Shown one piece after another: positions 51,285-53,278 of a DNA stretch of 64,000 nt. Both the position numbers and the translations under genes were made by a program. Below the pieces are notes generated by a model. It ran no database searches and had not been told where the DNA came from. It worked only from the letters and a program-made list of their open reading frames with translations. Numbering within the stretch: the stretch's first letter is position 1; each line of letters opens with the position of its first letter. The stretch covers positions 62,001 through 126,000 of the forward strand of contig JAVYUU010000002.1 in assembly GCA_038728085.1 (NCBI GenBank), given 5' to 3'. Source of the stretch: Candidatus Bathyarchaeia archaeon. GTDB lineage: Archaea > Thermoproteota > Bathyarchaeia > Bathyarchaeales > Bathycorpusculaceae.

Positions 51285-52322
51285 ATGCCTAGAAGCCCCG
51301 CTCCATGGATGATTGAACGTAAATTGCTGGTGAAGGCTGAGGGCGAGACAAGCCCGAAATATGGCTGTAAACCAGAAGAACGCCCAGCCAAAGACTACAT
51401 TAGATTCGGCGTCATAAACCTCGACAAGCCAGCTGGACCCACAAGCCATGAAGTAGCCGCATGGGTTAAGCGAATAATAGGCGTGGAATACGTCGGCCAC
51501 GGTGGGACCCTAGAAACCCTCTGGGCTTTCGAAGGGGTTTAGGGAAATCCCAACGTGACCGGCGTTCTCCCCATAACGCTGGAAGAAGCTAGGAAAGTTG
51601 TGCAAGCCCTGCTGTTAAGCGGAAAAGAATACGTGTGCATTATGAAGCTTCACGGCGACGTCCCAGAAAATCGCGTCAAAGAAGTGCTCAAGGAATTCGA
51701 GGACACTATTTATCAGCGTCCCCCCTTAAGGGCCTCAGTGAAGCGGCAGCTCCGCACAAGGAAAATATACTATATAGACTTTCTGGAAATGGAGGGGCGA
51801 AACGTTCTCTTCAAGGTTGGCTGCGAAGGAGGCACATACATCCGCAAGCTATGCTATGACATCGGCGAAGTTTTAGGCTGCGGCGCTCACATGCAGGAGC
51901 TCCGCCGAACAAGGGCAGGCCCCTTTGTCGAAGAGGAGGGGCTTGTAACACTTCATGATGTGGCATATTGGTTCTCCAAGTGGCGGGAGGGTGGAGACGA
52001 TGCAGTTCTCAAAAAGTTCATTCAACCAATGGAAAAGGCCTTGGCGCTTGTTCCAAAAATCTATGTGAGGGACACAGCTGTGGACGCTATATGTCACGGT
52101 GCAAGCCTAACAGCCCCAGGTGTTTTGTCTCTTGAAACGGGCATAACCGCTGGATCCACAGTGGCAATCTTCACCTTGAAGGGTGAAGCCGTAGCTCTGG
52201 CGGAGGCTCAAGCCTCCAGCGAGGAAATTCTCGGTATGGATCATGGCATCGTCGCAAGGGTTAAACGTGTTCTAATGCCCCGGGGCACATACCCCAAATG
52301 CTGGAAGAGCGGCGAAATATGA
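51285..52322 (+). CDS. cbf5: tRNA/rRNA pseudouridine synthase Cbf5 (TruB family), with predicted intron
   Basis: Catalytic subunit of H/ACA RNPs and tRNA Psi55 synthase. Joining 51285-51513 to 51547-52322 gives 1005 bases, 334 residues, the normal archaeal length. Exon 1 ends GHGGTL plus the first base of an Asp codon; exon 2 supplies the rest and continues PNVTGVLP, so the catalytic Asp77 of the GTLDPxxTGVLP motif is restored exactly. Further motifs: YQRPPLRASVKRQLR, RKIYYIDFLE, GTYIRKLCYDIG and a C-terminal PUA domain (about 245-330). Unspliced, the frame stops at TAG 51540-51542 before any catalytic function. It overlaps the next gene by 4 bases. Confidence 0.9.
51514..51546 (+). other. 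Predicted archaeal pre-mRNA intron (bulge-helix-bulge)
   Basis: 33 nt. Folding gives: outer helix 503-507/548-552 (uggga... with uccca), a central four-pair helix cccu 508-511 with aggg 541-544, a three-base bulge a-g^a (512-514) on one strand and a-a^a (545-547) on the other, and an intron stem around aaaccc/gggguu. Cutting after the second base of each bulge, as archaeal EndA does, leaves g513 joined to a547. This is the classic plan; only the inner stem deviates slightly. Confidence 0.8.
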
Positions 52323-53005: not shown

Positions 53006-53107
53006 GCCGGGGTCTCCTAGTCTGGTAGGGAGCAGGCCTGGAGACAACACAAGCCCAACAGCCTGTGGCCCACATGGGCCGCGTGGGTTCAAATCCCACC
53101 CCCGGCG
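53006..53107 (+). tRNA. tRNA-Ser(GGA) with 16-nt intron
   Basis: Class II tRNA: acceptor gccgggg/ccccggc, D stem tcct/agga-like, anticodon stem caggc/gcctg, loop c-t-gga-g...a (anticodon GGA), long variable arm ggccca-ca-tgggcc and T arm gtggg-ttcaaat-cccac, discriminator G. Intron acaacacaagcccaac at 53044-53059 is at the canonical 37/38 site; tgg 53039-53041 pairs with cca 53055-53057 as a shortened central helix of a relaxed bulge-helix-bulge. CCA is not encoded (CCT). Confidence 0.93.
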
Positions 53108-53278
53108 CCTTCAACATTGTTTTTAATGAACCCCCGCTACTTTTCGTTTTCCGGGAACTAAAACATCATTCCGAGGCGTTCCATGATAATTTCTTATTTC
53201 AAAGGCACTTTCAGAGTTAGGATATATCTGAATTTGGAATATTCATTATCGATGCCTTTGTCTAATTTTGGATAGGGG

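Follow-up and report, generated by a model that had tools for sequence, protein, structure and literature searches.

The cbf5 gene of this bathyarchaeal genome is interrupted, inside the codon of its catalytic aspartate, by a 33-nt insert that we interpret as a tRNA-type, protein-spliced intron with a bulge-helix-bulge (BHB) motif. We give a probability of roughly 93% to the reading that this is the cbf5 pre-mRNA intron at its crenarchaeal position, cut by EndA and ligated by RtcB, and that it arose early in the Thermoproteota and was lost many times. The insert is the known crenarchaeal cbf5 intron, alike in gene, codon and motif, and is not a new kind. What appears new is its breadth and probable age, a wider size range and a bias towards in-frame stop codons; its presence in most of the Thermoproteota families sampled suggests a much greater age, with exact losses on repeated occasions.

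The interrupted cbf5 gene

In the window (the whole 64,000-nt stretch of DNA analyzed here), sequence and translation place cbf5 at 51285-52322 on the forward strand, split over two frames by the 33-nt insert (Table 1). Joining g51513 to a51547 produced a 334-aa Cbf5 containing ...GHGGTLDPNVTGVLP..., and the coordinates, frame break, join and 334-residue product given in the initial annotation proved exact. The join 513/547 (last three digits) is unique except for 514/548, which yields an identical mRNA. A domain search of the spliced protein revealed the DKCLD, TruB_N, TruB_C_2 and PUA domains. Its best match among solved structures was an archaeal Cbf5 (2aus_C, E 1.5e-125, nearly full-length alignment), and its GTLDP motif is in register with that of solved archaeal Cbf5. 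These matches identify the host as the gene for archaeal dyskerin, of the TruB family, as expected for an archaeal cbf5 BHB intron. It is the sole cbf5 copy in the genome, the next matches having E values of 3e-6 or weaker, and Nop10 is encoded in the same genome.

The aspartate at the position of residue 77 is catalytic in the Cbf5 family, according to PMC2738675. As the initial annotation had claimed, its codon is split by the insert and exists only after joining: GAT arises at the exon join, and the unspliced RNA reads AAT. Because the join makes this GAT, active Cbf5 would come from spliced mRNA only, and translation of unspliced mRNA would end at the intron TAG.

Table 1. Coordinates (window positions) of cbf5, its putative intron, the pairing elements and the neighboring tRNA gene; a slash marks a putative cut
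Feature	Position	Strand	Remarks
cbf5 exon 1	51285..51513	+	Codons 1-76 and base 1 of the Asp77 codon; basis: translation
Outer helix, 5' arm	51503..51507	+	Partner 51548-51552; all exonic
Central 4-bp helix, exon arm	51508..51511	+	Partner intron 51541-51544; all four pairs in 120/125 sequences
5' bulge AG/A	51512..51514	+	Putative cut after 51513; AGA in 109/125 sequences
33-nt putative BHB intron AAACCCTCTGGGCTTTCGAAGGGGTTTAGGGAA	51514..51546	+	Site filled in 125 distinct sequences
TAG stop, exon-1 frame	51540..51542	+	Unspliced product 85 aa, without the catalytic Asp
Central helix, intron arm	51541..51544	+	Pairing and covariation
3' bulge AA/A	51545..51547	+	Putative cut after 51546; AAA in 71/125 sequences
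Outer helix, 3' arm	51548..51552	+	Pairing and covariation
cbf5 exon 2	51547..52322	+	Bases 2-3 of the Asp77 codon through stop
tRNA-Ser(GGA)	53006..53109	+	16-nt intron 53044-53059; among ten intron-bearing tRNA genes found

Structure and covariation of the putative splice site

In the predicted fold of the transcript, two bulges flank a 4-bp helix, built from exon 1, both ends of the intron and exon 2. All nine outer and central pairs named in the initial annotation exist; its two-bulge form, however, lies above the minimum-energy fold. That fold of 51503-51552 (-21.5 kcal/mol) shuts the 5' bulge with A-U, G-U and A-U pairs, and enforcing two 3-nt bulges carried a penalty of 2.5 kcal/mol and left U51540 unpaired. 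The exon-intron borders of the window's cbf5 copy therefore form a slightly relaxed BHB. A perfect BHB is present in the close relative L004, with the sequence TGGGACCCTAG AAACCC...GGGTTAGGGAA ATCCCAAC. Central and inner pairing arose by chance in 0.26% of shuffled inserts.

Each central pair was formed in 97-100% of 125 distinct intron-bearing sequences, with G-U counted. At pair x-5:i-4, which involves the exon Thr codon (ACC/ACT), we observed C-G 90 times, T-A 31 times and T-G 3 times (Fisher P = 4e-26); the ACT codon goes with an intron A where ACC goes with a G. A Leu codon TTA instead of CTA was likewise matched by an intron change (C-G 116, T-A 7; P = 1e-11). Both P values are descriptive because the sequences are related. 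The covariation score in a 94-sequence alignment was 0.367, compared with 0.170 for shuffled sequences and at most 0.124 with slid partners, and every one of the four inner-helix pairs, as well as two of the central ones, had changed on both sides. Intron-bearing genes favor GGG ACC CTA GAT CCC, whereas intronless genes are spread over synonymous codons.

Candidate splicing machinery

Two EndA genes, alpha and beta (C1:225773 and C3:48330), and RtcB are encoded in the genome, the heteromeric enzyme and ligase to which the initial annotation had pointed. EndA alpha is closest to 2cv8 and 3p1z, which we take to be the EndA proteins of S. tokodaii and A. pernix, respectively. It retains the His for which 3ajv_B, elsewhere identical to 3p1z_B in the aligned part, has Ala; opposite position 44 of the A. 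pernix sequence it carries a lysine, presumably the functionally important crenarchaeal loop lysine. EndA beta carries Thr where 1a79 (presumably M. jannaschii EndA) has the catalytic His, which fits the expectation for a structural subunit. At the gene level, the catalytic and structural subunits of a hetero-oligomeric EndA and a ligase are all present, and assembly of the enzyme is predicted. The EndA heteromer (catalytic alpha, structural beta) would cut after 51513 and 51546, and RtcB would ligate the two cbf5 exons, making the GAT codon of Asp77.

At least ten tRNA genes in the genome bear introns of 16-60 nt, and splicing of the tRNA type therefore evidently operates here. One of the ten, the tRNA-Ser(GGA) gene inside the window, lies ~680 nt downstream of cbf5 and was missed by intron-less ARAGORN. 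A group I or group II self-splicing intron was rejected as a candidate; such introns need a catalytic core of hundreds of nucleotides and the insert has only 33. Taken together, the BHB-intron reading of the initial annotation is strongly supported by a gene, codon phase and motif as in experimentally spliced crenarchaeal introns, by covariation, by the sole gene copy, and by the presence of both EndA subunits and RtcB. From these sequence data we infer that splicing occurs in vivo, with EndA and RtcB as the probable agents.

Distribution and size range

The best-matching named genome records for cbf5 were all Bathyarchaeota, so the proposed placement of the host outside classical Crenarchaeota is right. 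Of 50 distinct cbf5 genes from named Bathyarchaeota, 41 had an insert at exactly this nucleotide, a stronger argument against chance than the shuffled inserts, and 9 had none; the named bathyarchaeal inserts are 17-36 nt long and many are not multiples of three. We also read the cbf5 loci of 155 Thermoproteota genomes, of which 96 had the intron and 59 did not, and 47 of the 63 sampled families had at least one intron-bearing member. The sample was picked for diversity, so these counts are not prevalence figures, and its metagenome assemblies may contain misbinned contigs. The scope could not be seen in the initial annotation, which placed the intron in a lineage apparently outside classical Crenarchaeota: most sampled Thermoproteota families have the intron, not one new lineage. 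EndA architecture was rejected as the cause of intron presence or absence, since most of 80 genomes have two EndA genes regardless, including those of the intronless families f18 and f60.

Overall, 125 distinct inserts at the same nucleotide ranged from 13 to 76 nt. We take G173 to be S. tokodaii, G155 Staphylothermus marinus, G107 Desulfurococcus mucosus, G137 Ignicoccus hospitalis, G074 Pyrolobus fumarii and G017 Caldiarchaeum subterraneum. The intron measured 31 nt in G173, 36 nt in G155, 16 nt in G107, 0 nt in both G137 and G074, and 14 nt in G017 (L218). The first five sizes match Table 1 of PMC2738675 and provide a positive control. The published sizes are 16-44 nt in that table (Yokobori 2009); the 33-nt insert falls inside this range and is not, as had been stated, one of the shorter introns of its type. 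Introns of 13-14 nt, below the published minimum of 16 nt, occurred in seven families (L215, L218, L221, L226, L235, L237 and L238) and, with not enough space for an inner helix, look like bulge-helix-loop substrates. Two introns exceeded the published maximum of 44 nt, with 67 nt in L134 (G369) and 76 nt in L139 (G048).

Because intron sites were found with a motif pattern spanning at most 200 nt, any longer insert would have escaped the search; within that span, no larger, endonuclease-encoding cbf5 intron was found, none exceeding 76 nt. An origin of small cbf5 introns as deletion derivatives of larger endonuclease-encoding ones is raised in PMC2738675.

Intron state was mixed in one genus (family f1, genus code g3), with the intron present in L102, L144 and L161 and absent from L107 and L108, which makes this genus well suited to studies of recent precise loss or regain. 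The cbf5 gene L239 (genome G001, same family) carries a 22-nt BHB intron together with a ~520-aa intein that sits at GTYIRKLC^YDIG and contains a LAGLIDADG domain, and would thus combine RNA splicing and protein splicing within one gene. More generally, the cbf5 inserts offer many natural replicates for studies of archaeal intron gain and loss, and in many genomes the gene could be annotated wrongly as two fragments.

Stop codons within the inserts

Stop codons in the exon-1 (translated) frame were present in 97 of the 125 inserts, compared with 25 and 22 for the other frames. All 33 multiple-of-three inserts contained one (11.5 expected from shuffled interiors), as did 64 of the 92 inserts that are not multiples of three (16.8 expected). 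When one sequence per family was used (45 families), the mean stop counts were 27.6 in the translated frame versus 11.1 and 7.7 in the others. The first stops fall at one common offset in 56 inserts; others are at eight different offsets and are TAA, TAG or TGA. Part of the stop bias is shared ancestry. Its simplest reading is that it may reflect selection against translation through unspliced mRNA: read-through would yield a Cbf5 whose active site contains extra residues, and where ribosomes meet unspliced transcripts during coupled transcription-translation, an internal stop would block synthesis of full-length, broken-site Cbf5. As far as we know, no sequence feature before this bias had indicated that unspliced cbf5 mRNA is of consequence for the cell.

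A length that is a multiple of three and a sole in-frame stop that is TAG would also suit translational recoding of the unspliced 33-nt insert, by stop readthrough (e.g. TAG as pyrrolysine) or ribosome bypassing. We give this almost no credence, because the Asp codon is absent from unspliced RNA (AAT, not GAT), 92 of the 125 inserts found here have lengths not divisible by three, the in-frame stops of relatives include TAA, TAG and TGA alike, and the pairing fits an EndA substrate. The draft state of the assembly (13 contigs) could suggest a pseudogene or an assembly error, an explanation that is just as hard to credit: the genome has no other cbf5 copy and does encode Nop10, both exons are intact over 334 codons, and dozens of independent assemblies, some of them single-contig genomes, share the insert site.

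Evolutionary history

In a careful tree of 85 rows, the window's Cbf5 fell within a Bathyarchaeia clade of 17 rows (support 100/99), separate from a clade of 17 rows holding the presumed Sulfolobales and Desulfurococcales families (100/98). Forcing these two clades together was rejected (p-AU 0.013), and forcing all intron-bearing rows into one clade was rejected outright. Parsimony on a 124-row quick tree explained the intron states by one gain and 20 losses; with equal costs for gain and loss, the optimum was 3 gains and 16 losses, with the main gain near the base of the phylum sample, on a node with 114 of 118 rows. The Cbf5 tree thus favors one early gain, or at most a few, with 16-20 losses. 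The deepest branches of this tree are weakly supported; a cbf5 intron ancestral to most or all Thermoproteota is therefore likely but not proven, and some gains may have been repeated at the same site.

Two other histories were weighed against early gain and loss. The intron could have been inserted separately in Bathyarchaeia and other clades, with the DNA coding for GGTLDP acting as a preferred site for short BHB elements. Its patchy presence (16-19 state changes on the trees), the insert interiors that cannot be aligned across clades, and the ease with which Gly-Thr-Leu-Asp-Pro codons become self-complementary all fit such insertions, but equal-cost parsimony still places the main gain on the deep node and no short insert was noticed elsewhere in cbf5 in an unsystematic look, and we consider this history unlikely. 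Identical position and motif would also follow if Bathyarchaeia had acquired an intron-bearing cbf5 horizontally from Sulfolobales or Desulfurococcales; the separate, well-supported clades and the rejection of their union make this very improbable. Under early gain, the intron would have entered cbf5 early in the Thermoproteota and then been lost precisely many times. The occurrence of the same intron in most of the phylum makes it probable that it long predates the published origin, a gain in the ancestor of Desulfurococcales and Sulfolobales (2009; PMC2738675). More tentatively, and at somewhat short of even odds, the intron may date back to the last common ancestor of Thermoproteota or close to it, which would make it the oldest known archaeal pre-mRNA intron, and may have been kept under selection for an in-frame stop, with splicing as a checkpoint that the supply of the H/ACA enzyme must pass.

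Comparison with known introns

A cbf5 pre-mRNA intron has reportedly been described in crenarchaea (Aeropyrum, Sulfolobus and Desulfurococcales) by Watanabe in 2002 and Yoshinari in 2006. To our knowledge, confirmed archaeal pre-mRNA introns amount to essentially one case. In 2020 the cbf5 intron was still described as reported in crenarchaeota only (PMC7714728), and our literature search found no report of it outside crenarchaea, including Bathyarchaeota and Caldiarchaeum, in a searched collection beyond which further papers could exist. The bathyarchaeal insert shares with the crenarchaeal intron its gene, its phase in the catalytic Asp codon and a similar length (PMC2738675), as well as a relaxed BHB with the cut, predicted here, between bulge bases 2 and 3. 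It differs in its bathyarchaeal host, in the spread to most sampled Thermoproteota families, in size range (13-76 versus 16-44 nt) and in the in-frame stop bias, of which the available text of PMC2738675 makes no mention for the crenarchaeal intron.

Archaeal tRNA introns cut by EndA have the BHB, the short size and the EndA and RtcB pathway in common with the cbf5 intron, but are hosted by tRNA and not by a protein-coding mRNA. BHB recognition is also shared with archaeal rRNA introns; these often encode homing endonucleases, as stated in PMC2738675, whereas the cbf5 inserts are too short for one. The BHB sites in the 5' UTR of Haloferax HVO_1309 (PMC7714728) are likewise mRNA motifs processed by EndA; they lie in an untranslated region, while the cbf5 intron splits a codon.
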